From Ulota crispa (Eukaryota > Streptophyta > Bryopsida > Orthotrichales > Orthotrichaceae), in NCBI GenBank assembly GCA_963920765.1, contig OY987243.1:23431419-23495418 (forward strand): a stretch of DNA of 64,000 bases, read 5' to 3'. Position numbers and translations under genes: made by a program. This document shows positions 8,732 through 48,353 of this stretch, piece after piece. The notes under the pieces are model-generated. The model made no database searches and was not told where the DNA came from. It worked only from the letters and a program-made list of their open reading frames with translations. Numbering within the stretch: the stretch's first letter is position 1; the number at the start of each line of letters is the position of its first letter.

Positions 8732-11700
8732 ATGGATGCGCTGGATCAGCTGGTGACGCAAGTGCAGGCTCTGTCGGGGACCGATCACGATGTGGCGCAT
8801 CTCAGCACCTTGCTCAAGCAGGCCGACGACCTTCTGCACTCGCACGTCCCCCGTCTCGGCTACGTGCTCGCTGCTCTTCACCCCGCCAAGCACTCCCTCG
8901 GATACCTCTACTTCCTGTCCGTCCCCTCACTCTCCCTCTTTGTTCACCAATCAACCTTATTCCGCAGTTTAATCTTTTGAATTAGAGCTGTTCGGGCGTT
9001 TCTAATATGCTACTCTATGGCCATGGCGAACCAGGGATCGATCTGCAACGTTCTTGACTGCTTTGTTGAGAAATTGACCTTTTTTTCTGAGATTAGGTTT
9101 TGTGTAATCGCCGACCTGCAACGTTCTTGACTGCTTTGTTGAGAAATTGACCTGTTTTCTGAGATTAGGTTTTGTGTAATCGCCTTGGTTTGTGTATCGT
9201 TTCTGATTGCCCTAGTTTTGGTAGGAGTTCAAAACGTTTTCTCATTTCTGCACCGATTTCTGGTAGTTACGAAGTACTGCTGTTGAGAACGCTTTTATTT
9301 TCTAACTGAGCGTCAATTTTAACGTTCTTCCGATGTCTTTCATTTACATTGAGAGAATTGGATCTTGAAAGGAATAGACGGAAATATAGTTCAGTAAACG
9401 TAGATCTGGATTATTTGACTGTGACTCGTATGAAGAGTGTCGAATGAGCTGATTCTTTCGCCAGTGTGCTTCGGAATTGGACGCGTTCTGATATGGTTTA
9501 TTCTCTGGAGTTTACAGTGAGGCTCAATCGTCGGGGACACTGAATAGGGAGCAATCGGAGAGTTTCTTGAAACAGGCTTCTGCATTCCTTACTGCCTGTG
9601 CTGCAGAGCAGATTCGCCTAGCACCTGATAAATGTAAGTTTGAATTGTGTCTGGTTGATTGTTTTCATGTGCAGTGAGTTAGGGTTTCAATGTGCTGCGT
9701 TCTTGTGCGAGGGCAGAGTGGTGGCAGTGTTTCCAGAAATTCGAATCTTTTCGCTCCAGTTGTTTTTTGGTTTGCATCTGTTTCTGATTGAATGAGCTCG
9801 GTTCTTAAGCTGTAAGTACACAACTCATGCCCAAAACGTTAAAAAGACGTTCAAATTACTTCTGAAATTCCAAACTGAAGAAAAGGCATACTCAGTTTTT
9901 CGGTGACGCTAAGTCTTAGGAATGCTACGGCTTAAGATTGGATTACCTGAGTTGAACTTATCATTAGGGTTTATTGACCTGCTTGAATTTGTGCTGCTAT
10001 GTTATCAATTGACATTATTTTGCGTTAAGAGTGTCCTATGGTTGTGATTTTGCAGTCAACAGTGTATGCCGGAGGGTGAAAGAGCAAGCAATGCACTTGC
10101 ACGAGCCCATGCGTGCTATTCTCCCTCTGCAATCCGCTATCCGCAAACTCCAGCCTTCCAGTGAATACTTGACTGCCATTCATGCGGATTTTTTGCAGAT
10201 GTGCTTACTGTCCAAATGCTACAAAGCCAGTCTGAGTGTCTTGGAGGACGATATCTTTGAAATCGATCAAAAAAGAACCGCACTTGTACCTCGGGACTTC
10301 CTTTTGTATTGCTACTATGGGTATGTGCCAGAAGTACTTTGCAAAATATCTTAACAATTCATTACTTTCAATTATGTGTTGCGATTGTCTTGAAACGTAC
10401 GCTTCTGTGGTCGGCATTACTGATGAAGGTTGCTACCATTCCATTACAGGGGGATGATCTATATTGGTTTGAAAAAGTTTTCCAAGGCCCTGGAATTTTT
10501 CCAACATGTAATGCTTCTTAGACCAGTGCATTACCTTTTTTTTTGTTTTCAGTGCGTCTGATGTGTCGTCTGTTCCACTATATGGTTAATTTATAAAGAT
10601 GTATTCTTCTGGATACTTATGGACTGTCATTTGTTGATTAGGCAATCACTGCTCCTACGACAGCTCTGAATGCAATTACTATTGCAGCTTTCAGAAAGTA
10701 CGTGCTGGTGTCTCTTATTCAAAACGGTCAGGTTTGTAAGGAATATCTTGAACCTGGTTTTCCTGCTAGTTTTATGTTGCAGTTTTGCTGTTTGTATCAG
10801 GTTCATTGCTGTTTTTAGTTATTGAGAATGAGAGGATCGACTTTAATGTAGTTTTTGTCACTCTCTTCTGCACGTGTGCTAATAAGCACTTCAGTGAGTA
10901 CATTTGATTGAATGTTTATTGTATTGTGTCTTACAGTTTTCGTTATCCATTTCTTACCATACAGGTCCCTCCTTTCCCGAAGTATACTCCGGCGGTTGTT
11001 CTACGAAATCTGAAATCCTGTGTTCAGGTACACAAACTAAATGCTTATTTTGTGGATAATGGTATCAAATTTCATTTTGTTTCTCGGGCATACATATGGT
11101 CATGTCTGTTAAAATGGCATGTTTCAGAGCGCCGTGACCTGACTTTCAAGCGCCCAGAGCTTTATATCTAGGACTGGTATAGTTATGATGTTTCCGTTAG
11201 GCGAATGAAACTGTGTCAAGTTCGCTGAATTCTGCCATCTAAATGCATTTGAAATTGTGTTGCATGTTTCCTTTTATATTTGAGAAATTAGGTTCGTGAG
11301 TTAGTATAGGAGTCGCTAACTGGGGAACTTGTAATCTACAGGATTACTTGGATTTATCAAATCTGTATTCCAGCAGAAATATCGATGATGTTAAGCGTTG
11401 CATCGATGCACACGAGGATGTCTTCAAGAGCGTGAGTTCCTTGCTAATCTGTTTGCAACTCTTGTTGGGCTAAGAATTGATGCATGTTTGTGTTGCCGTT
11501 TGTGGATCCAGATGTACTCCCTGCCCAGCTTTATGCTTGCTTTTGGGAAGGTAACCACCCATGATTGTTATTCATTTTTTTCATCTATGGAATTGCAGGA
11601 TAATAATCTCGGGTTGGCAAAACAAGTAATTGCGTCGTTATATAAGCGTAACATCCAGCGATTAACTCAGACTTACTTGACCTTATCCCTTCAAGATATT

Positions 11701-12908
11701 GCCGACACGGTGCGATTAGACGGTCAGAAGGAAGCTGAATTGCGTATACTTCAGATGGTAAGTTTGGGTTGTTTTATTACAGTGTTCGCTTATTCCTTGC
11801 AAGTTAAAACCAGTACTCTAGGAGTTACTCGAAGATTCAGGTCGTGAATGAATGTGATGAACGAGTTATTGTGTGTAGATTAAAGATGGCGACATCTTTG
11901 CTGCCATCAATCAGAAAGATGGAATGGTGAGCTTTCAAGAAGATCCCGAGCAGTACAACACATGTGACATGACCGAGCGTCTTAACAGCGAGATTCATCA
12001 GTACGCTCCCTCCCCTCCCTCACATTAAAGTTCTGATTGCGTATGCAAGCAACCTTTGAATTGTACATCTTTGATCTATTTCTTACGACACTTTCATTCT
12101 ATGACTGCTTTTCTTTTCCATATCATAGACTTCAACATATCACATTGCTTTTCAGTTGGACTAGATTTGTCATTTGGTTTTCTAACGTGCTCTCCTTTAT
12201 GTGCAGTATTGTACGTCTTGCCAAGAAGTTGACATGGGTGGATGAGCAAGTTTCATGTGATCACGCTTATTTGAGCAAGGTATCCCTCTCTTTTTCACGC
12301 CATGTATCACTTCACGTTTTTTGTGTGAAACTACGAATTTGTGACAGGTCATCTACCTATTTGTACCTTTTCACAATTTTCGGATGTTTTGAGTGAACAA
12401 AAGATTGTTGTCACTATCGGTTTGGTGTTCAAAGACATCTCACGTTTTCACTCTCTGTTGCTTTCATCTTTCATGCTCATGGCTGCACGGAAGCTATTGA
12501 TTGTTTACGAAAGAGTTGTTATGAGGTGAATGTAACGAAGATTTCACAAGGCCGGTAGAAATATATTTGCAGGGAGCTTAGATTATCTGCTCTTTGGTAG
12601 GTTAATTAGATGTTGAGATGAATAAGTGGCCCAATGATACTGATCTGGGACATTTCACCTACATCAGCAATTCCGTTTTAAGTAATTCATCTACGTACAT
12701 TTTTTTGGACGGGCTTTTGTTTGTATCTGTATCGGTTTGCTTCTTGATTAATGCTTTCCTAATATATTTAATTTAATAGCGAAGTCCCTTGATCATGGAT
12801 CTCGTTGTCTCGTCTTTGATATTTTTCTTGCAGATTGGAAGAGATCGACCCCGGTATGAGCCTGAAGACTTCGAGCTAGTTCCACAGAAGATGTACACAA
12901 ATCTTTGA
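8732..12908 (+). CDS. CSN3: COP9 signalosome complex subunit 3
   Basis: Eleven exons: 8732-8916, 9518-9633, 10056-10320, 10450-10507, 10642-10731, 10965-11027, 11342-11431, 11599-11757, 11879-12000, 12207-12279 and 12834-12908. They encode 431 residues. The protein is a PCI-domain subunit of the nuclear COP9 signalosome, which removes NEDD8 from cullin ubiquitin ligases; Arabidopsis FUS11 is the counterpart. Landmarks in order are [39 protein letters not shown], a [10 protein letters not shown] helix, the PCI stretch [16 protein letters not shown] and LTLSLQDIA (about 293-325), then [17 protein letters not shown] and the C-terminal DFELVPQKM. Every junction keeps frame. Relative to Arabidopsis there is a short insertion, KRTAL, before VPRDF. 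A small splice-bounded stretch at 11513-11551 is not needed to match the family and was left out. Confidence 0.95.
9044..9184. repeat. Tandem duplication in CSN3 intron 1
   Basis: Two copies of about 69 bp, each starting TGCAACGTTCTTGACTGC and ending GTGTAATCGCC, follow each other with a 73-bp period (9044-9112 and 9117-9184). They differ by one small indel in the T run, so the duplication is recent. It lies wholly inside intron 1 (8917-9517). Confidence 0.9.
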
Positions 12909-26808: not shown

Positions 26809-29800
26809 ATGATGCCAACGAGGAGGCAAATGGTCCGTGATGAGGAGCTTCGGCTAAGTAACGGCAAGGAAAACTCCGCTGGAAGAAATTGTCTTCGTAC
26901 TTCGGAGATTCTCTGCCCTGAGTCGACGAGTACTGCGGTGGCGATTGTTGAACAGCCGGAACTAAGGTATGGACGACTATGCGTTTGTCTGTCCGTGGCG
27001 AGAGTTAATTTTCTGTAAGCCAGAGTTCGCAGCAGTCGTCAGAATGTGTCAGAAATCTTAAATCATTACACACGTGCATGTGCACGTGCACCTGCTTCGT
27101 CAATGAATTTGGATCAGGCCTGAAGGAAGTCCGACAAACGCAGAACGGAAGTAACGGTCGTTCAAGGGTTGACTAGCGTCAGGGCATTCCGGTGGTCTTA
27201 GGCTTGCAGAAAATTAGAGCTCAGCCGTGCAGTTCGGTTAGCCGTGTGCTGATTATTCTCATAATCGCTTACTGCCGAGCTATTATGCTGATGAGTTCTC
27301 TTACTCTCTACTCCATTTCCAATGCACATGACGAAATACGATGTTGCTAACTGTCATTCGGATTTCTTGCAGAGCGTACAAACTCGGAAAGCAAAAGTGC
27401 TCTTACAATCAGGTTGAGCTGGTAATTAAAGATATAAGTGGCGGCAAGGTGTCAGAGCTCCGGGTTTCAGAGGCGATCGAGACAATTGTGGGAACTGAAG
27501 TAGAGGAGCAGCTTCGTGAAAGTTGTCTAAAATTCCATGTGCGATTCGTTAACAACACACGCATTCTATTGTACATTTACGTGGTATACTCGAGTCCTTA
27601 TGGAACAACGAGAACCGACAAGCATACGGTGTTATATCATTGGATGCCCGTCACACGCTCAAAATGCAGGAAAGGATGCACCGGTTCTGTGATACGAGGT
27701 CTGCAAAGATTTGGTAGAATGCCACGAAGAGGGGCTGCAGCAGTTGACGGAGAGGACACGTGGAAAGAACCTCGGCATCTGTACATTGCAATTGACGAAG
27801 CCAGCACTCACGTTTGCCCCCGACATGAGACCTCAAAATTCAGACTGCTCGTTGCTGCCTACGATGATCGACATCAGTTACTTGGAACAACTGTCTCCAG
27901 CAGCATTCGAGTTCTAGCTAATAACGATGCTCCCCTTGGTGCTGCTTCGTTCAAGCTACACTGCCACTTGAAAGGTAGGAGCCGATAAATTCGAGATGCT
28001 TTTATGGCAATTCAAAGAGAATCATAGCCACAAACGCTTCCTTGATAGTTACACTGGCTGGTGTTTCTAAATCCCATCACACACAGAGTATCCACATGGT
28101 CCCGAAACATGCTCGACATATATCGCGCACCTAGGATCTCGAGGCAAATGTGCAACCGGCCCAAAAGTGGACAGTTATGCCATTAGCTTCAGTTGTGTTT
28201 ATTTCGTTTTCTCGACCTAATCAACGATTGTGGAAGCCTCAAATTGCATTGCTCGGATTCGTGAACTTCGACGACGATGCAATTGGTGAAAAATTTACAG
28301 TTGAGAATCTGTAAACACCCGTTTCAAAGATCGACAAATGGCTCTAGAGAGTAAGGTTTTGGAGCTACGAATGCTGAAATTTCGGTGGTGTAGCACAAGC
28401 TAAGCTCCTCCTAAAACGTGTGCATGGTTCTTCATAAACAGGTGCTCTTAAAGGTCCGTCACCAGGTCGAAGTAGCAGGCTCCAATTGAGTGACAATCCA
28501 ATGCCAGTTCAATGCCGCTTACCTCTTCAAGGTGGCAATTCTGCAACTGATTTCTTTTGCTTGGAGATACGTTCGTGTAGTTGAATTTCGAGCTTGTGCT
28601 TGTGAAATACTCTCTCGTCGGCTTTTTGTGGACTAACCCTGAGATTTCAGCAGCAGCAGCAGCTAACTACGAGGCCTAGACTTAAGCCATAAGCGAGACT
28701 GTGCTTTAAGAACCTGCTTAAATCCATACTTGGGAAAACGAGCACTGACGTCTTGTTCCTGTTACCCAACAGCTCTACCTCCAAATACGAGCCCCTCAAG
28801 GTCAAAAACAGCAGCAACAGAGGAGATACTGACAAGTGATTCATCAACGTCGAAATCAGCTTTGTTTACGTCGCATACTACGAGTGAATCCTCAAATAAG
28901 CAGGTTACATGGAAGTTCTGAGAATATCCACCTTTAATCTAAGACTTTTTGCTCAGGCTTTGTGACGTAAATACAAGCTGCAATATATGCATTACATAAC
29001 CTGGATGCACAAAAGTAGAAGAAAGAAAATCTATCGTACATTCTAATAATTCGCTAAACAACTCTACTACCCGTAGTTGGTCCCCTTGAGTGAGACTTGC
29101 ACTAGATGCAATTCTCGAAATTGGTGTTCTGAATCAGTTGTATCTTTCAGGTGGTTGCTGGAAGAGGTGAGGAGCAGCGGAAGAACCCTGCTAGTGAGGG
29201 TTTTCCTTGCGATGTCATCGAGTATGCTGTGGCACATGTTACCGGCAGGTAAACATCCAAAAATTGAAGATAATCGAGTCGAAATTGCAGCTAGATTTTT
29301 GGGTTATTAATGGTGATTAAGTTGAACTGCAAATCAAATTTTCTTGCATTTGAAGCTGATGATGAGTACCTGAGCTCCTATCTATCCTTGACTAATCAAT
29401 TTTCTTATACCTTTTTGGACTTGCAGGGTCTTGGAAGCCTGTTCCGCAAAGCCGGTTGAGTCAATCGTATCCTTGAGGACGTTAGCTAAGCTTGTTGGTG
29501 CGCATCGAAAGGCTCATCCTCCAATGTATCCATACTCCCAAATTTATTTGGAGAAGTATTTTACAACTAGGAGATTTTCTCTTTATGGTCTGATTTTGTT
29601 AGTTCTACATCAGATCTATGCACTAATTGCTTCTTTTTAACAGGTTCGAAGCGAGCGGTCGTGGCAGAGATTCTTAGCGTTCTTCAGAGTGTTGGAATAG
29701 TGCGTGAGCAAGAGAAAGAAAAGTACAGATGGCTCGGCAGTTCGTCAATCATGTCCACTCTCACAAAATTGTCTAAGGTGCTTGTCATTTCCAAGAGAAG

Positions 29801-32800
29801 GATTCAATATGATTTTTTTTGAATCTTATCACATTACGATTTTATTTTAAATTCATATTCATTAGGAAGTTGCCACGTAACATACACTACTCAGTGATAT
29901 GTCACTGTCAGCATGTATTCCTCTGGAGATTGTTCGGAATTGTTACCTCAGTTCCAATGCGTACTAGCCCTCATTCTAGTACAGCGATATTTCTCAGGGA
30001 AAATCTAAACTATTCTTTGTATGTGTAGTCCTGATTACAAGACCCTACTTTGCCACTTGGAAATTATTTCAGGAAATAAACCCAAACGCGAGACGAAAAT
30101 CAACAACGCAGAGTTCCGGATCTAGGAACTGTCCAAATACGTCTTTGATACAACAGCGAACTTTTCGATGTGAGTATACCCGAACTGCATGTACCGACCA
30201 TGTACACAATATCAGGGACAAATCAGACAATCATATATAACACTAACCTTGACAATGATTTCCTCCTATGCTGAAGCTCGCAGTCTTTCATGGACAGAAC
30301 TGACAACTCGAACAATAGTATTAACCTTTCTTTTCTTAGTAAATTAGTAGTAAACATCATATTAGGTAAATTGGGAAAAAAAAATCCTGGGACTTTCACA
30401 TTTTTTGCCATCATGTATATATTAGCATATCACAAAAAACAAAAAACAAGCCAATATTTTCTTGTACAATAGTGAAGTCTCAGTGACTGCCTCCTAGAAC
30501 TTTTATAATTACAACTTTTGAGCAATATTATAATTACAACTTTTGAGCAATAGTTATGCTTACGTTTATTGATGTGTGATTAAGTGGAGTCCAAAATAGT
30601 TCCTCCGTTTTTCCCAATCTACCTAATATGGTGTTAGTATTATAAAAATCTACCTAATATGGTGTTAGTTTTATAAAGAAACTCTAAAGAATTGCAACTC
30701 CTACTCCTGGTTCAGATGCAGCAGAGAGCGACACAATGGATAATACAATATGTGGTCTTAGCAAGAGACTCGTTCGACTATTTTTGATTGATGTGGTAAG
30801 TTTCAAAGCATTCTGAATCTTAACTTTTACTGAACACGAAAGGATGCTACTTTTAGAAAAAAATCTTATTGTAAGAGCAATTGCGAAGACTGGATATAGC
30901 CATACAGGTTTGGCCAGTGTTATTTCCGCATGGTTTCCAGAGGTCTCAAAATGCATTAATTTTGTGCTTCACCTTTGCAGACCACCCCTGTTTCGTGGGA
31001 TCTAGCATTGACCATCTTCCTGGACAACCATCACGACAATGATGCTGAGCAACATCGTTGTAAGTATTTTCTAATTATACACCATTAAAATATCTTAGAT
31101 TTTTCTTTATCTAAATATTCAATTAAACACACCGGTTTTTTTATATGACGGCCAGCACTTGTACTGACTCTGACTCCAGCAGCTATCTGCAAGCTAACTA
31201 CTACTCTGATGTTTGACATATAGTGAAAGGAAGGAGACTGTTGGAGGTATTGAGAATTTTTGGAACTCTGAACCTGGTCAAGCGGTGTGTACCCAAACGA
31301 TATTCAGCATCTAGCACCTATCGTTGGGTTGGTGCTGAAGCTGTGATAAATTATCTAACCGGACTCTCAGGCAAGCAGACCATGAAAGAATGCTCTAACA
31401 TTTATATATGACCTAAGCCCTGCTTGTGTTTGTGAGTAAGCTTCTTGTACTCAGGAGAAGCTCAAGAATCTTAAATGACATCTTTTATGAAACATAAAAA
31501 GTAGAATGCGAAGGATTACACTTAAACAGTCTAAATCGCGCCTTTACGTATTTTCTTAAAAAATGAGTTGCGGCCGGACCTGTCAGTAACGCAAATCCCC
31601 TGTTGAAATGATATTAAGAGAAAAAATGTATTGGGAAGTTTCAACCAAGCAGTAGGTTAAAACAGCCTTGTTTACTTTAAGTTTGTCAACAAAATAATGT
31701 TTCAAAAGGGGTTCGCACTAGTGATGCATACCATTTGTGTCAAGATTTCTGCAGCTCAGCTAATCCAGTCATTGGAAGAACTGAAGCTTACAGCCTAGGT
31801 TGTCTTCCCGGAGTATGGTTGGGTATAAAAGACTTGAGCAGTACCTTACAAGAGATTGTTTGATGTTTGCAACAGGGTCTTCGATGCAAAGTGAGTTCCA
31901 TGGCAGCGCTCCACACTACTTGAGGTCTTCAAAGTATTCAAGAGCGAGGAGAGATTTTACTTGTGAATCTGCAAATGGTTCTCACGAAAGCGATGAAGCA
32001 TTTGCGAACAATTTGATCCAACATTGTCAGCATTTGGCTGTACCCACCACCTTTCAGAAGCAATTGGAAAATGAAAACGATAATTCCCGAAGATCGAAGA
32101 GAAAATTTTCGGACTCCAACGAAGAAGAATTTGAACCATACTCTGACTCACGACTAGCTGGTTGCCAACTAAAGTGTTACAACACCCGAACGAGTATCCC
32201 TAAACGGCCTCGTCTTAATTTATCTAGTTCGCAGGTCACGGATATCTCCACCAAGAGACAGGATGATGGCAACTGTTCCGGACTGATGAATCGCTACGCG
32301 GATCAACCAGCCTTACCCGAGTGCAGGGGTCAAGAGCACGTCTCTTGTGACTTTGAAGATCCTCTTATTCAACCTGTGCTGGAAGAGAGAGAAGACAGTC
32401 CCATACAGCTGCATGGGTGTGATGATGATGGGTGTGGAAATCGTGGGTATCCATCTGAATCGAGATTCTTAATCACAGGCTGCCCAGGGGCAGAAATTTC
32501 AGCTGAGAAAACGAAGCAAACCAGAACGTCATCGAGTACAAGCATATTCGATTCCCGATGCAGGGGTGAGCCTGACGTGGTATCAAAGGAAGGAGAGGAG
32601 ACCTTCGATACATCGAATGGTAGCATTCTGGGAGCAAGTGAAGCTCCAATTACACAGTATGGTTTACACAACGTTTGGCCAGAATATGGACCAGCTGGCC
32701 CAAGCGTCTTTCAATTTCCTTACAAGAAGAGACCTCACAATTGGAGTTCGTTCCTTGCCGTAGCAGCTCCGAGGTGTTTTGAGGATCAGCCTCTCCCCAT

Positions 32801-33070
32801 GGAGTATTCTCATCCGGGATATTATATGGATCTTACAGACCGAAACGATGAGCTGTCGTGTTTCAAACCTCTTCACTACCTGCAACAACTCTTGACCCCT
32901 CAGCAAGTCGAGCAAGTCACAACACAAAATCCAGGTACGGAGCGGGCATGGCCCTAAGGAAAGGTAAACTTGCAGTGTAAATAAAGAATCAACTGAACGA
33001 ACACGTGTGCTGTGAAATTGCAGAATTACAATTTATAACGGAATTCAAAGACTTTGAAGCGATGTATTAA
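26809..33070 (+). CDS. Divergent atypical E2F-like protein with unassigned N-terminal domain
   Basis: Thirteen exons: 26809-26966, 27373-27974, 28442-28531, 28773-28903, 29151-29248, 29427-29497, 29644-29777, 30073-30169, 30716-30795, 30981-31059, 31224-31370, 31876-32934 and 33024-33070. Together they give 930 residues with every junction in phase. Residues about 345-412 form a winged helix (TLAKLVGSKRAVVAEILSVL, then QSVGIV, then KYRWLG). Residues about 466-555 form a second one (LSKRLVRLFLIDV, then GRRLLEVLRIFGTLNLVKR, then TYRWVG). Two tandem E2F-type domains without a dimerisation partner segment is the plan of E2F7/8 and plant DEL repressors of cell-cycle genes. Both domains lack the canonical RRxYD contact motif. 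Residues 53-253 form a separate conserved-looking region I do not recognise (for example CSYNQVELVIKD and SSIRVLANNDAP). Residues 563-930 are acidic and Ser-rich, probably disordered. Intron 31371-31875 has a GC donor. Confidence 0.72.
32935..32985 (+). terminator. Possible intronic polyadenylation site of the E2F-like gene
   Basis: If the donor at 32935 (CCAG|GTACGG) is not used, translation runs on six residues (TERAWP) to a TAA at 32955-32957. The only AATAAA nearby follows at 32980-32985, inside the last intron. This predicts a shorter transcript with an alternative C-terminus in place of the spliced ending ELQFITEFKDFEAMY. Confidence 0.4.
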
Positions 33071-40004: not shown

Positions 40005-43000
40005 TTATCGCCGTCGTCCATAGCCACCAGCTGCAATAGGACGTCTCTGCCTAGATGCGTTTCCTACTCTGCCGCCCCCTTCTCCCCAATGGCCACCCCT
40101 GCCACGGCCCAACCCAGGCGCTCCTTGATGCGTGGCCCAGTTCATAGGCTGTGGTGCAGAGCCTGCCCGATCCTCCTCATCCCTCTCATTGTACTCCAAC
40201 ACTAGTCGCTTAATGTCTTGTTTCTCCTCCAGTTCCGCCGCTTCCTTCTGCTTTGTGCTAAGAACAAGAGAACAATCACGTGGAATGCGGAGCTGTTTAG
40301 TCTGTTGTTTGTTACCTTTCTTCACTAAAACTCGAAACTGGACGCTAGTGCCACTTGTTTGATCGTCCACAACCTCGTCACCAGATTCTATGTCCGTGCC
40401 TCCACTTCGACCATGGTCCTTCGAGTCGAAGAGGTTTAGCGGAATAGTCATGTTCAGGGTTGGGCGAGATCGCATTTCAAGTTTTCGAGAATCTATACTT
40501 TCTTGCATGAGAGCACGATATTCACGATCAAATTCGGCTTCTTCAGCAGGGTCTGACTCTGGCATCTTCTTCTGCATTACCTTGACTTTCTCTTCTTCCT
40601 CTGAACCTGCTGTGTCGGCTCCACCTTCCAGCTCCTCTGCTTCCAGCTCATCATCACCTGCAACGGTGTAGATGAATATCGTGAACAACAATAGCTGAAC
40701 ATATACGGGACTACAAAACATCAGGCAACTCTAGAGAGAATGAAATTAACAGACTAGTAACAAGATCTCATCTCTTTGCAGATTGAGCCGGTGAAATAGT
40801 GGTACTCGAACTCAACGCAGTTTGCCATTCCTACCTTCATCGTCATGAAATGGATACTTGTCTTCTTCCAGCTCCTCCTCTTCCTCCTGGCCATCAGCCT
40901 CCATACTACCACTTTCCGTCTCCGATTCACTATCTCCATCGTCCGCCAAACTTGTCCCGTGAACTCCTGCAGCTCTTGTTCCAAGTGGTGCAGCTCCAGT
41001 ATTTTGCGCATCCTTACCATATTCCGATCCTTGATTGTTGGTATGCACCTCCCCATCTGCTTGTGTTGTTATATTTGAGTACCGAGAACTCCGTTCCTTC
41101 TCAGAAGCCGCTAAATTGCGATCAACCTCTTCTAACTCGAGCAACGCTTGATTAGCCTCGTCATAGGTAGCATAACGTACCATCTTTGGACGAAGATCTG
41201 CGAAGAGATCCTGTGAACAATAAAATATCGTTTTACTTAGAATAATGTTCCACAATCAATCCCTCCCACCCCGAACAGTAGTAACTCTCCTTAAGTTCAA
41301 CTTACGACATTATTAAGCAAATCGTTAAAGCAGTACTAATTGTGAGACAACAGAAGAAATTGCAGCATAATTTTATGAAAATCAGGAGGAAAGGGGTTTT
41401 GTTCAGTGCTGTTCTACCTGAAGATCAAATTCTACGTCCAAAGGAATGACTCCCTTACTAAGCACATATCTTTGAAAATGGAGTAGAAATCGATCAAGCC
41501 GGCGCTTGGATGAACCCCGGTCGAAGAATTGTCCACATGTCTCAAGAAGCGTGATGACCATCCGTAGCCGAAAACAGTCTTCGGGAGGGTCCAGTACATC
41601 TTGCTGAATCATACAAGCAAACATGAAGGGGTAAGAACAAACGAAAACCCTCAGAAGCTGTATAGATATGGAATCTTAGATAGAATATTGACAATAGAAC
41701 GACAGTAGAGAAACACTAGAAAGGAAATCTTTCAAACTGCAACGAATAGAGAACATAATTAAAACAACATTCACACTCAAATCCTATAAGAACATTCATC
41801 AGCATTTTTTGGACTGTACAGGAGCACATATCCTATAGTATGACAACTGACAGTGCAGGCAAGGAAAATTGCTATGACATTTACAATGTTTTAGAAAGAA
41901 ATCTGCTGAAAAATACTTCGAAACAGGCTGAGTATAAAAGAAGACTAGAAACAAAACAATTTTACATCTGTTACTATGCATCCTGGAATTTCGTGACATC
42001 AACTCAAAGGTATGTTGTTATAATGGTCCTCATCAATTAATATGTCCTGAAAGGTGAAGGAACTCAGAAAAGGTAGAGTTAGTTGCGGAGAAATTCACCT
42101 CTGAAGTCCCATGACCGAATCCAATGATAAGATAGAGAGTATCAAAGATGACAGGAGAATCTATGAGGCGGTAGCTATAAAGCTCCCCAAGAAACCGCAT
42201 GTATGCGATCCGTCGCTGCTGCATCCCATACTCGTTCAACTCCAAACCAACTCTAATAGCTTCTAGAACCTGGAATATATTAAGAACTAGGATTAGCGAT
42301 CTCTCTTGATTATCATTGCATCAAATTTGATAAAATAGAAGGTAACATGAATATTGATGCGAAAACTGTTCATCCCCAAGCTACAGGAAACTGTTAAAAC
42401 TCTCTAAGCACTGCTGCTCGGCACTCCAGGAATGCAACTGACCAACAGCAACGCAGGCTGTCTCCGGTACCTAATGTAAATTTTTGGAATGTTGGTAAGA
42501 GCTTAGCACTAACATAATGTGACGACTTTGACGGACGTAGAAGAATTACCTCATCAACCACAGCAACAGCAAATGCATCATGATATCGGCTTAGACCAGC
42601 AGTTAAAGATGCTATTAAGTGAACTTGACTGTATTTTCCTTTATAGACCTTCATGAAGCACTTCAACACATAATCTTCACACTCGCTCCATGGGAGCTTT
42701 CTCAACTGCCGAAGAACTCTCTCAATTGTTGTCTTATCAAGATCTGCAAATAGCAGCTTCCGGATGTACTGCAAAGCATGATGCGAATATGAGTACGATA
42801 CAAAAACATTGACATCTGTTTGCATTATAAACCAACCCAGAGTGGATGGAAAAATAAGAGAAAGTGTAAAGAGAACAAGCAAATGATGTAAGAGTAGGAA
42901 GATGCTCTTCTACCTGATGTAAAGGTGGGCGAATTTTAGAGACACGAGCAGACCTCTCAGGAGGCTTGCATTGGTAATAAGCGTTCTCTACAAGAGTACT

Positions 43001-46000
43001 ATGTCGAGCATCCAGATTCTTGACATTCTTGAGACGCATTATGATCTCAAGCATATTTCCCATGCGTAAAGATGTCTCTGGAAACCGATACAGGAAGCGC
43101 CCGCAAGTTTCAAGCAAATTGCACGCCACATCGATGTTGTGGTGAGTGAAGTCGTCTAAACATGACTGAAAAGTACACATTATTATTAGACAAGCCAGCA
43201 ACAAACGTAATTGCAATATATGATAGTTGAGAGGTATACTATTATAAAATGTAGAAACAGAAAGCTTGCAAAACCACTGGATACAAGGCCTACATTCTGC
43301 ATGCATGGGGCAACTTCACGCGGAATAGTCAGAATGAGCATTCGATCTTATTAGTGGCCAACTTTGAACAAAACTAAAACTCACTTTGAATTTCAGTAAC
43401 GCACCTTCAAACAGCTGAATATGAGGCCTGACGATGCCACCTTGAACTTTGCAAGTTCGCCTAAGAAACGGATATTCCTAATCTTGGTCTCAATGTTCAT
43501 TTGGTCCTACATAACATTGTCAATTTGAAGTGTAAGCAAGTCGTTGAAATGAAAAGTCTCGTGGAAGAACATGACGCTAGAATTATATGCTACACAATTC
43601 TCAACTTCTGCTCAAAGTTTACTACTGCAAATGAGAATCACATATGCAGGAGGACTATCAGAAGTGTTCCTTTGACCCTTGAACAGACAATCAAGAATGC
43701 CCAAATTCTTATCTAGACTCAAACCTATCAGTATCAGTGACAGTTCTAGCATCCACGTAGTAAGCACGCTCAGCAGTCACAAGAAAGAAATTCGATATCA
43801 TACCTTTTTGTTCATTAGAAAATTAAATTCCTCTTCCAGTAATTGTAGAATCATAGGAGCTACATCCTTCATGCATGTAGACAGGGTGGCGATCATTCGA
43901 GAATAATACGGTATAAGCTCCAAGGAACTTCGTGGAACATTGAAAAGAGTGCGCACAAGCTTCTTCCGGCTGCTCTTTGAGTTCAAATAACAGAAATCTA
44001 CCTGCTCAGAAATGAGATACCCACAAGCACAAACCTAAGAATAAAAACAAGAATTCAACTCTACCATGTCAAACAGCATTAAGATAACGTCATAGAAATA
44101 TTTAGAGTTGCCCTGTTACGAACTTAAATTCCAAAAAACATTAAAGCCTGATGAAGGTTACCGTGAGTTGGTCAATGAGGTCTCGACTAACACAGCCAGG
44201 AAGCCTTTGAAGAAGACTGTCAAGACTAGCACCTTCAGCACCTTTCACCTTTTCCTTCTCATTTTCTTTGTCCAACTTCTTTTCACCATCCTTGCCTTTC
44301 TCTTTCAGCTTCTCTTTCTCTGGATCTCGAATTCTGTCTTTGTCATCCTTGTCTTTATCTTTGGGCTTCTCAGCAGCAGTAGAGGTTAATTTATCATCTA
44401 AAGCCGTTGGTGGTGTTTCCAAAGCTTGAGTCTCTGTTTCTAGGATAACATCGGGAGTTCCTGCTGCTGGGCCAGCAGTTTGCTCGGGTTCCTGTCAACA
44501 ACGAACCAATGATGATCATACTTGGACAGAGGCACTTTCCACACCATGAAACCAGAAATGAAATTCTCACTAAATTATGCATTATGTCAAGACATAGTAT
44601 GAAGAAGATAAAGAGAGTACATACGTACCATTTGCTCGGCAGCCTTTTGTGAAGCTTCTGCTACCCCCTTTGGTTCAGACTCTCCAAGTAAAACGGCAGG
44701 GACAAATGCACTGGCAACATGTAGTACTTTCATCATCAAGATGACACAACAAAATTTGACATGTTTATAATACTAAACCTACGCAAACCCTGCGAATTAG
44801 CTATTCCAGGAAAGGGGGGGGGAGGGGGGGGGGGGGGAAGGGACGATGATACAACAATCATTGGGCCATTTGTCATTAAAAGGTTGTTAAACAGATTGAT
44901 AAACCCAAAGAAAGGACGTCAAAGAAATAAAGACAGTAAATACCGTAGATCAGGCAGGCTTTCATAGAAGGAGCGTGTATCTTCATCATCCCAAATAGGC
45001 TCTGGAGAAGCAGGTTCCTTTCCAGACGCTTGGGATGGCCCATCATCTCCAGAAGTAACACGTGTAGTGTGGCCGTCTTCTGGCGTTACTGGGGGCTGAG
45101 TATCCATTGCTTCTGCCAATCTGCGCAAAGAAGAGTTACGGTTGATCAAAATCAGACAAATCAACAAAACGTGAAACTAGGAAGTAAACAAGAACATTAA
45201 ATGTAAGCTTACACAAACCCAGCTCCACTGTTAATTATTAATAAACTGCTCTGCAGCGACTGGAAAATAGGAACTTACGAAGAGATATTACGAAAGAGAT
45301 GCTCATAAGACTTTCGAAGCTTTTCATACGCAGCTGCATTTTCCTCGCTTAGCTCTCCCTTTGCATTGAGCATTCGTGCATTCTCTAGTTCCAACTGCCG
45401 TAATGCCTGCCGGAATTTCATACAAGTCTCAGATGGTGTAATTAGAGCTCTAGATCTACCAAAGAGAAGGTAAAGCCCTGTCTTTCCTTCTGATGCTAGA
45501 AGACAAGAAGGTTGAGCACAAGTTGTGAGCTCCCCCTGACGATGGTACTTATAATAAAAATACTACCATAGAAAAGAGACACAAATGAAAGAGCATATGA
45601 CTGCACCATGATACTTGATTTAAGAGCTGATGCAACAGTCGCTCAGTAGAAGAAGGACCACAACAAGATACAGTTTGATGGCACAAATGAAAACAGATAA
45701 GAAGTGAAATACACAACAACTCAACACAATTACCCCGTGGTCTGTCTGAAGAAGTTCCACCACTGCATCAAGAAATGATTGAAAGAGCTTGCGCAAATGT
45801 TTTTTCTGGTCAGTAGTCATACTGAGCTCCTTGTAAAACTGCACAAATGTCAAGAATTTAATAATAAAACACATAAAATGCCGATGCGTAGGCCCATCAA
45901 CTTTATAAGCTTCAGCGCCAAAAAAATGCTGGTTGACACTTGGTTTCATTTGCTGTCACAAGTCGCCAACACCTGAAGCGTAAGGTATGGTCTTGTTTCT

Positions 46001-48353
46001 CTCCGTACAATACCTCAAATATGATTATCTTGAAGTTTCCAATAAACTCAGGCAATAGATGAGCAAAACTAATGGGTGGGTTTTAAATTATAAACCGAAC
46101 CTATCATGAAAACACGTGGCAAGGCACACAAACAATTCAAGTCGCCAAAGCTGTGCTGTCGCAAACAGAAAAAACATCGCCACACCCCTTATCAATTCAA
46201 ACAAAGTAGCTGCGGATATCACCTCTTCTTGTCCATCTTGGCCGTTTAGAGAAAGGCCAAGGAGACCCCGACCTTGCCTTGCGAAGCTAACCAGAAGCGA
46301 AAGACTGGTCTGAGTGGCTTCCCGGTCCTTCAAATGCTCACTGCTCGTGAGATCCTTAATGATGCTAACAAACACACCTCCATCCTCAAATACTCCACAG
46401 AAGTAGAGCTCCATCATCAGCCTGAGTGTGCTACGTTTCTTCATTGCCCGCGAGCTCCGATCACCGTCGATTTCATCCCCTTTACCAGGAAAGAAAATTT
46501 TCAATAGCGCTGCTAGAAGGGTTGGTGCAAAGTCTTTGTATCTTTGGTGAAGTAAAGAGCAGACCTACATTCACAACATCATGTTAAAAGCATATCACAA
46601 TAACCTACATAGTCGATTTTGTCCAAAGATCTGAAGCCGAACGTTCCCAGTAAGTCCATCTGAGGAATAAATGCTTTCAATGCTCTCATCTAAGACTGGA
46701 GATAATGCAATCGTCAATAAATCTAGGCAAAAAGAACAGGTCGGTACCTGTACGGCTGCATTAATGTCTGAACTTTTCAACTTCGCATCCAAAATTGCAG
46801 TCACTGCTTCACTTACGAACTTGCTCAGGTTTACAACCCGAAGCTCTTCAAGCAGACCTTCTCTTTGCTCTTCATTGATCTGTTTCAGCTTCTTGATCAC
46901 AGCTGTGTTGCGCTTGATGCTCGAATCTAAAGTTTTGAAGAAGCTGGCATCTGAAAACCATGGTCAACCAAGCAAAGATTGTGATTAACATATCTTCACA
47001 AAAGAGATTAAACATGTTTCAGTAAAAGCGTTGAAACAGCGACAAATATAAGCACTTTAAAGCCTAAACTCCTCAATCGTCAAAGTCTCCGCTGCTATAA
47101 GGCTTGACCCCACCCGCGGCTTAAAGCAATAAATTTCTAAAAAAAACTTAGCGCTCAGAAATGTACCCCAACAGCAGTAAAAACATACAGTCCATGTCTA
47201 AAACTTGCCTAGAAGACTTTGCAAAACTGTGGAAACAAATTCAAAAAACGAAATCCCATGAGAACTTCAAAAAAAATGCACCACTTCCGTACTTCGTCTA
47301 ACACGAGCTGATGCATAGTCATACATCACAGAAACATCGCTGACAACTCAATTTCAATTCAATTACCAGGTCTGTCCGGCGCTAAATTGGCTTGACGTAA
47401 CACATGCTTAGCTTCCGCCGATTTCTTGAGCTCCTCTGCACGCCCAAGATTCTCCTGCTAAAGGACACAGAGTAAACCCTAACGAGCTCAATTCCGCTAC
47501 TCCAGATGATGGAAATGATCACAAATTGATCACAAATTGATCACAAATTGATCACAAATTGATCACAGATTGCTCACAGCATTCCGAAATGAAATATCAA
47601 CACAGAACAGCACTGCGATTTCAAAATCAATGAGGCTAGCCTCACAAAAGCGACACTGAAAGAACTGTCAATTCCTCGAACCACACAAACTCGCCATGAA
47701 AAGGACACGGAATTCACTTTTTCTCTACCCAAGACTCGCGTCAAATCGCATCAAGAACCAAGCACCGCAGTCAGAATACATCTTAAACAACTCAATTCAG
47801 CTAGTGCCGACAATGAAAAGAATTCACAATTTGCTCACGGCATTTCCGACATAAAATCAGCACTGCAATGTAAACATTAAATAGCATAGCCTGAAAAAAC
47901 GACACTGAGAGCACTCTCGGTTATTTGAACCGTATAGAATTCGCCTTGAAAAGGACACCGAGCTCACTCCTGATACTTCCCTCGGTTCAAGAACCGCGTG
48001 AAATCGCATCAACGCGCAGCATTACGTAATTAAAAACTTCTCCTCAGCCAGTGGCTGAGAGTACTCTCAGTTGTTTGAACCGTGTAAAATTCGCCATGAA
48101 AAGGACACCGAGCTCACTCCTGATACTTTCCTTCCATTCAAGAACCGAATAAAATCGCATCGACTTGCAGCATTACGTGATTTAAAAAACCTCTCCTCGG
48201 CCAGTGACTCACCTCATCTCCATCCTTGCTTCGGTGAGCGGTCTCACCACCGTGGTCGTCATCGTCGTGCTGAGCACCAGCACCACCACCTGCACTTGGT
48301 CCAACACCGTCCCCGCCCTTCTCTCCGTCCGCTTCTTTCTCCTTCAACCCCAT
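40005..48353 (-). CDS. UPF2: Nonsense-mediated decay factor UPF2
   Basis: Seventeen exons, 5' to 3' on the minus strand: 48353-48213, 47454-47367, 46950-46748, 46564-46223, 45838-45734, 45406-45279, 45120-44944, 44710-44629, 44491-44162, 44001-43804, 43506-43405, 43165-42914, 42768-42550, 42269-42099, 41603-41418, 41210-40835 and 40657-40005. They encode 1250 residues. UPF2 bridges UPF3, bound at exon junctions, to the helicase UPF1 in cytoplasmic mRNA surveillance. Three MIF4G repeats are visible: about 77-300 (KKLKQINEEQREGL, SRAMKKRSTLRLMMELYF), about 515-710 (LLQRLPGCVSRDLIDQLT, THHNIDVACNLLETCGRFLY) and about 717-908 (RQLRKLPWSECEDYVLKCF, LLETCGQFFDRGSSKRRLD). A Lys/Glu/Asp-rich tract (about 450-505) separates the first two. 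An acidic linker leads to the UPF1-binding tail (LNMTIPLNLF, GNKQQTKQLRIPRDCSLV, LEEKQDIKRLVLEYNERDEE). The ATG at 48353 is the first in frame; the tail ends in Gly/Arg repeats. Confidence 0.96.
44814..44837. repeat. Homopolymer G tract (C on the sense strand) in UPF2 intron 7
   Basis: Nine G, one A and fourteen G on the plus strand lie inside the UPF2 intron 44943-44711. On the transcribed sense strand this is a C-rich, pyrimidine-only run about 100 nt before the exon 8 acceptor. Confidence 0.9.
47517..47571. repeat. 11-bp tandem repeat in UPF2 intron 1
   Basis: Five head-to-tail copies of GATCACAAATT, the last with one change, lie in intron 1 (47455-48212). Non-coding. Confidence 0.95.
47652..48211. 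repeat. About 150-bp tandem repeat in UPF2 intron 1
   Basis: Two clear copies begin near 47912 and 48062. Both contain GAAAAGGACACCGAGCTCAC (one with a change just before it), CTCCTGATACTT, then CAGCATTACGT and a CTCCTC-GCCAGTG ending. A third, more diverged copy lies about 47652-47765 (CCATGAAAAGGACACGGAAT). The last copy ends at the exon 1 donor, so the repeat has expanded right up to the first splice site. Confidence 0.8.

Follow-up and report, generated by a model that had tools for sequence, protein, structure and literature searches.

A probable combination of an orphan N-terminal segment with highly diverged atypical-E2F winged helices in a DEL-type gene of the moss Ulota crispa

Introduction

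The locus analysed here raises the question of whether a DEL-type gene can carry, in front of its paired winged helices, a further domain with a role of its own. The evolution of E2F and DEL genes in green plants has reportedly been surveyed by Rauber et al. The locus lies in a 64,000-nucleotide stretch of the Ulota crispa genome (C2:23431419-23495418; hereafter the window, whose numbering is used for all coordinates below), and an initial annotation had placed there an unassigned domain of about 200 residues, encoded by a single exon and joined to two E2F-type winged helices. Plant DELs are described as a DNA-binding domain only, with no further domain (PMC11110339), and no extra N-terminal domain on a DEL is described in the portions of the literature searched; the predicted gene model in the window holds an orphan exon 2, which may be fused to the helices. 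Searches within the species used a genome of 274.8 Mb in 157 contigs.

Results

Structure of the gene and its surroundings

In the gene model, twelve exons on the plus strand (26809-32957) join without interruption into a frame that codes 922 residues and ends in a stop codon at 32955-32957; the initial annotation had given 33070 as the gene end. Splice ends are GT-AG throughout except for one GC donor at 31371, after exon 11, and the junctions 27974/28442, 28531/28773 and 28903/29151 have GT-AG ends and compatible phases. Exon 1 (26809-26966, residues 1-53) carries the motif GKEN at residues 19-22, and is followed by exon 2 (27373-27974, residues 53-254), the orphan and possibly beta-rich N-terminal segment, by a linker in exon 3 (28442-28531, residues 254-284), and by a Ser/Thr-rich linker in exon 4 (28773-28903, residues 284-327). 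The first winged helix (approximately residues 350-428) is encoded by exons 5-7 (29151-29248, 29427-29497 and 29644-29777) and joined through exon 8 (30073-30169) to the second (approximately residues 467-560; exons 9-11 at 30716-30795, 30981-31059 and 31224-31370). Exon 12 (31876-32957) encodes a long tail without a Pfam match (residues 563-922) and the stop. Intron 8 contains a MITE-like element (30353-30677) with 28-nt inverted repeats that are 93% complementary and 227 nt apart, the right end of which is tandemly repeated at 30616-30677.

Elsewhere in the window, a neighbour on the minus strand (40005-43315) with Pfam Upf2 and MIF4G matches looks like UPF2, a nonsense-mediated decay factor, and a piece at 46088-46564 appears by eye to be related to it, with no Pfam match. 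On the plus strand, an exon at 11395-11847 has a PCI domain (E 4.4e-7) of the COP9 signalosome or proteasome type by eye, and a frame at 2319-2810 looks by eye like the beginning of a sterol C5-desaturase, with no Pfam match at E 0.001.

Reading frame and splicing of exon 2

The claimed 602-bp exon is present at 27373-27974, flanked by ttgcag/A and AAAG/gtagga and free of stops in the frame that leads from exon 1 (phase 2) to exon 3 (phase 1). When the 6.3-kb gene region was simulated 300 times with a first-order Markov model, stop-to-stop frames of at least 218 codons, the length found for exon 2, arose in 2 of the simulations, and they arose in none of 40 for the whole window; due to this rarity the frame is taken to be more than chance. 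It is made less certain by codon usage, which fails to mark it: the in-frame score of exon 2 was 0.13 compared with 0.03-0.15 in the other five frames, and by synonymous choice only it was 0.06, the lowest of the six. Among 3180 non-coding frame-windows, 1.2% scored as high as exon 2 (2.8% by synonymous choice). This scoring, for which the training set was 18 segments (1442 codons) with several picked by eye and no cross-validation, did not separate frames; several other exons of the gene likewise had a frame that codon usage did not favour. GC content at codon positions 1, 2 and 3 was alike in exon 2 (0.55, 0.43 and 0.46) and in the training exons (0.57, 0.41 and 0.49).

Of the eight combinations of exons 2-4, two connect exon 1 to exon 5 without a frame shift, and both of these contain exons 2 and 4. 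Its GKEN matches the SGKENR of both canonical DELs in the genome; shuffling the exon 1 peptide produced GKEN in 78 and KEN in 1561 of 200000 cases, the motif having been chosen after it was seen, and no alignment to the DEL N-termini extended beyond it. Because exon 1 has this DEL-like motif and can be joined to exon 5 in frame only via exons 2 and 4, a fusion is more likely than two genes, and from the reading frame together with the shared motif exon 2 is likely to be spliced to the helix exons.

Two diverged winged helices of the atypical-E2F class

The two E2F-type winged helices that had been claimed are real as a pair, the E2F8 structure 4YO2 being matched in order at E 6.3e-9. A PDB search with the helix pair gave two listings at E up to 10, 4YO2 and a FadR-type regulator (E 1.5), with E2F4 (1cf7) absent. 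Scored as single domains against 4YO2, the first helix was weak (11.5 bits, i-Evalue 1.7) and the second, whose counterpart in the alignment is the second of the E2F8 DNA-binding domains, was clear (25.6 bits, 8.4e-5). Pfam E2F_TDP is passed by the whole protein via the first helix (residues 356-415), at 27.5 bits against a cut-off of 25.7, a narrow pass on which E2F surveys based on Pfam might list the gene as an ordinary member; the second helix alone had no Pfam match, and the window gene was absent from the matches when the profile was run exon by exon over the genome.

The genome's canonical DEL on C1 matches 4YO2 at E 8.9e-45. Identities in the first and second helices are 46/80 and 47/75 between this DEL and human E2F8, compared with 18/80 and 23/88 between the window gene and the C1 DEL, and 18/82 and 21/76 between the window gene and human E2F8. 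The alignment scores of the window helices are nearly equal, at 53.5 bits to the genome's DEL and 50.8 bits to human E2F8.

The RRxYD recognition motif, expected in both helices of a DEL or atypical E2F, is complete in neither: in the first, AVVAE stands in place of the RRIYD of the canonical DEL and E2F8 and the motif is lost, and in the second, RRLLE stands in place of RRLYD and only RR is kept. E2F8 contacts DNA through Arg113, Lys114, Ser117 and R313R314L315Y316D317 (PMC4686757). At the positions taken as Arg113, Lys114 and Ser117, the window gene has V, I and A in the alignment, and the basic element preceding the first helix is not preserved, the alignment being weak at this point. Judged from sequence, the helices are very diverged members of the atypical-E2F class (E2F7/8 and plant DEL) in which the DNA-reading residues of E2F8 are mostly gone, a loss that the initial annotation had missed.

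Comparison with canonical DELs

Six exon-level E2F_TDP matches occur at four places in the genome, on C1 (2), C2 (2), C3 (1) and C4 (1); those on C1 and C2 were read as canonical DEL genes and that on C4 as DP by eye. The canonical DELs on C2 (L009) and C1 (L010, 17.05 Mb) are identical at 72/78 and 86/90 positions in the helices, some joints of the C2 gene having been set by analogy. There are also two similar CBP60 loci, L022 on C8 and L023 on C5, and both the DEL pair and the CBP60 pair may be retained whole-genome duplicates.

Across the helices, five of six introns of the window gene agree with the C1 DEL in phase and position, one of them only to approximately 4 residues. These are a phase 2 intron before FLNLYG in one gene and VLEACS in the other, two phase 0 introns (K/EEAL and K/EINP; Q/TQVV and V/TTPV, the slash marking the intron), a phase 1 intron at (T)KVRRLYD and (L)KGRRLLE, and the approximate one, also in phase 1, before the second helix. 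The intron 29497/29644 is not common to the C1 DEL, and three of the eight introns of that DEL are missing from the window gene. Since the helices are about equally far from DEL and from human E2F8, these introns are the main ground for deriving the gene from a plant DEL. The window gene and the C1 DEL are thus alike in their tandem E2F-type winged helices, five shared introns (one approximate) and N-terminal GKEN, whereas the window gene has RRxYD lost or halved, an extra segment of about 200 residues and a tail that does not align. Animal E2F7/E2F8 (4YO2) have tandem winged helices in the same order; compared with them, the window gene does not retain the residues at the positions aligned to Arg113, Lys114 and Ser117, nor the first RRxYD, and has the extra N-terminal segment.

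Outside the helices, similarity to the canonical DELs was at shuffle level, with the score reached by 476-611 of 1000 shuffles for the N-terminal part and by 392-918 of 1000 for the C-terminal part. Ahead of their first helix, the canonical DELs carry about 110 residues, and a search with exon 2 through the loci of these two genes (9-10 kb) gave no match at E 0.05, which agrees with the claim that DELs carry no such N-terminal domain. In the liverwort Marchantia, one E2F, three DP and two DEL genes are reported (PMC13237563). Of these, MpDEL2 is strongly elevated in antheridiophores (PMC6174852, PMC11371191), with an increase there that ranks with the largest of any transcription factor (PMC6174852); it is set beside the window gene as one of the liverwort's two DEL-class genes, by description and not by sequence.

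Relatives and fold of exon 2

Whole exon 2 returned zero listings at E up to 10 in Pfam, PDB and NCBIfam, and no credible relative or second copy in the rest of its own genome. Short patterns from it matched 2 stretches in viral contigs and 26 in prokaryote genomes, with no relative confirmed in either scan, both of which reach close relatives only. A genome match at C1:18722948 (E 1.73 genome-wide, with two stops; 1e-4 when its 3.2-kb locus was searched by itself) and another of 30 residues in locus L011 (E 0.027, one stop) were taken as chance. So were two below-cut-off Pfam matches, FAD_binding_6 and RM5_Med14, with E 0.15 and 0.09, respectively, when the query was the first 105 residues of exon 2; on the whole protein FAD_binding_6 gave E 0.24. 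The degenerate motif NNDxPxGA occurs a single time in the genome, in this gene, which says little because a backward control pattern also matched, once per strand. The C-terminal 72 residues show a weak likeness to protocadherin 5dzv (E 0.17). On these searches, which covered Pfam, PDB, NCBIfam, viral and prokaryote sequences and the species' own genome, the N-terminal domain of about 200 residues is provisionally regarded as not described before.

Two AlphaFold runs without an alignment gave strand-rich models at a confidence too low to lend them weight (mean pLDDT 37.7 and 45.1, pTM 0.34 in both). In a Foldseek search with the low-confidence model, most of the chains listed were GFP (best E 0.05, TM 0.15), and nothing matched at E 0.001. 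The beta-rich globular fold that had been proposed for exon 2 is plausible as a conjecture.

The further impression of a p53/Runt/Rel-type domain was not supported: up to E 10, neither Pfam nor the PDB listed anything for whole exon 2, and its p53 alignments were at shuffle level. For a p53 core, suggested by strand pattern and cysteine motifs by eye, the score was reached by 192-269 of 1000 shuffles, and with cheap gaps by 1059-1342 of 3000. A p53 search of the genome scored no candidate, and the control likewise matched nowhere. Exon 2 was unmatched by Runt in Pfam, the only Runt match in the genome lying elsewhere at E 1.4 (control genomes were also silent), and the Pfam Rel homology domain (RHD) was absent from a scan of the whole protein. 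A CBP60 domain, also suggested by eye, was compared with the two CBP60 loci of the genome, and the score was reached by 98-410 of 500 shuffles. The likeness of exon 2 to p53/Runt/Rel-type immunoglobulin-like domains is a visual strand pattern, with no statistical similarity in these comparisons.

Discussion

The tandem helices in E2F7/8-DEL order and the intron positions common to the canonical DEL identify the gene as a putative DEL paralogue. We consider it fairly probable that this paralogue is highly diverged and neofunctionalised, with an undescribed N-terminal domain, and that it is a specialised regulator. The new domain combination that had been proposed stands insofar as two helices and exon 2 lie in one frame; its p53-type part is unsupported. 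What can be called probable, from sequence, is the combination of orphan exon 2 with atypical-E2F helices.

It is unlikely that 26809-27974 is a separate small gene, with an adjoining winged-helix gene starting downstream, for example in exon 3. In favour of this, a methionine is coded in exon 3, and the frame of exon 2 closes 14 bases past the donor, where read-through adds GRSR before a stop (27986-27988); against it, the phases are compatible at either end, the length of intron 2 (467 bp) lies inside the gene's 146-546 bp intron range, and exon 1, with the GKEN of canonical DEL N-termini, requires exon 2 to be in frame with the helices. Somewhat more credence, if still well short of even, is given to a partly disordered exon 2 that arose as a fast-evolving expansion of the DEL N-terminus, specific to the lineage, and that lacks its own fold or function: no credible relative was found in the collections searched, the helices of the same gene are very diverged, and canonical DELs too have some 110 residues before the first helix. 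However, exon 2 has by eye long hydrophobic stretches (HVRFVN..ILLYIYVVYS, FRLLVAAYDD and SIRVLANN), unlike canonical DEL N-termini, and alignments of exon 2 to these N-termini were at shuffle level (478 and 684 of 1000).

It is very unlikely that exon 2 instead equips a DEL, by fusion, with a CBP60-type domain or with a diverged member of the p53/Runt/Rel/STAT superfamily of immunoglobulin-like DNA-binding domains. The strand pattern and the C-x3-C and C-x2-H motifs, all by eye, and the weak protocadherin likeness of the 72-residue C-terminal piece would suit it, but p53 and CBP60 scores fell within shuffles, no family of that kind appeared in the Pfam listings and the Runt match sits elsewhere in the genome. 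Least credible of all is a decaying DEL pseudogene, to which the degenerate DNA-contact motifs and a codon usage without frame signal would point, and against which stand the 12 exons, whose splice sites are usable, and a frame that stays open for 922 residues.

If the gene is the neofunctionalised DEL paralogue favoured here, exon 2 would likely be part of the same protein as the helices, and neither helix would any longer read the E2F site (TGGCGGGA preference) in the usual manner. Specificity or partner binding would then have passed mainly to the orphan N-terminal domain, and the protein's role would be that of a specialised regulator instead of a general repressor of S phase. E2F7 and E2F8 are controlled by the anaphase-promoting complex, according to one report (PMC7758050); the KEN-like motif of exon 1 may, on the strength of the motif, likewise expose this protein to removal by the complex during the cell cycle. 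We hold as a tentative and rather doubtful proposal that in this plant lineage an E2F7/8-type double winged helix gave up E2F-site reading, and that an undescribed folded domain, fused ahead of it, contributes a new specificity for DNA or for a partner. If true, the combination of decayed DNA-reading helices with an extra domain would show a cell-cycle repressor turned to another task, and would provide an extra domain to look for in bryophytes and ferns.
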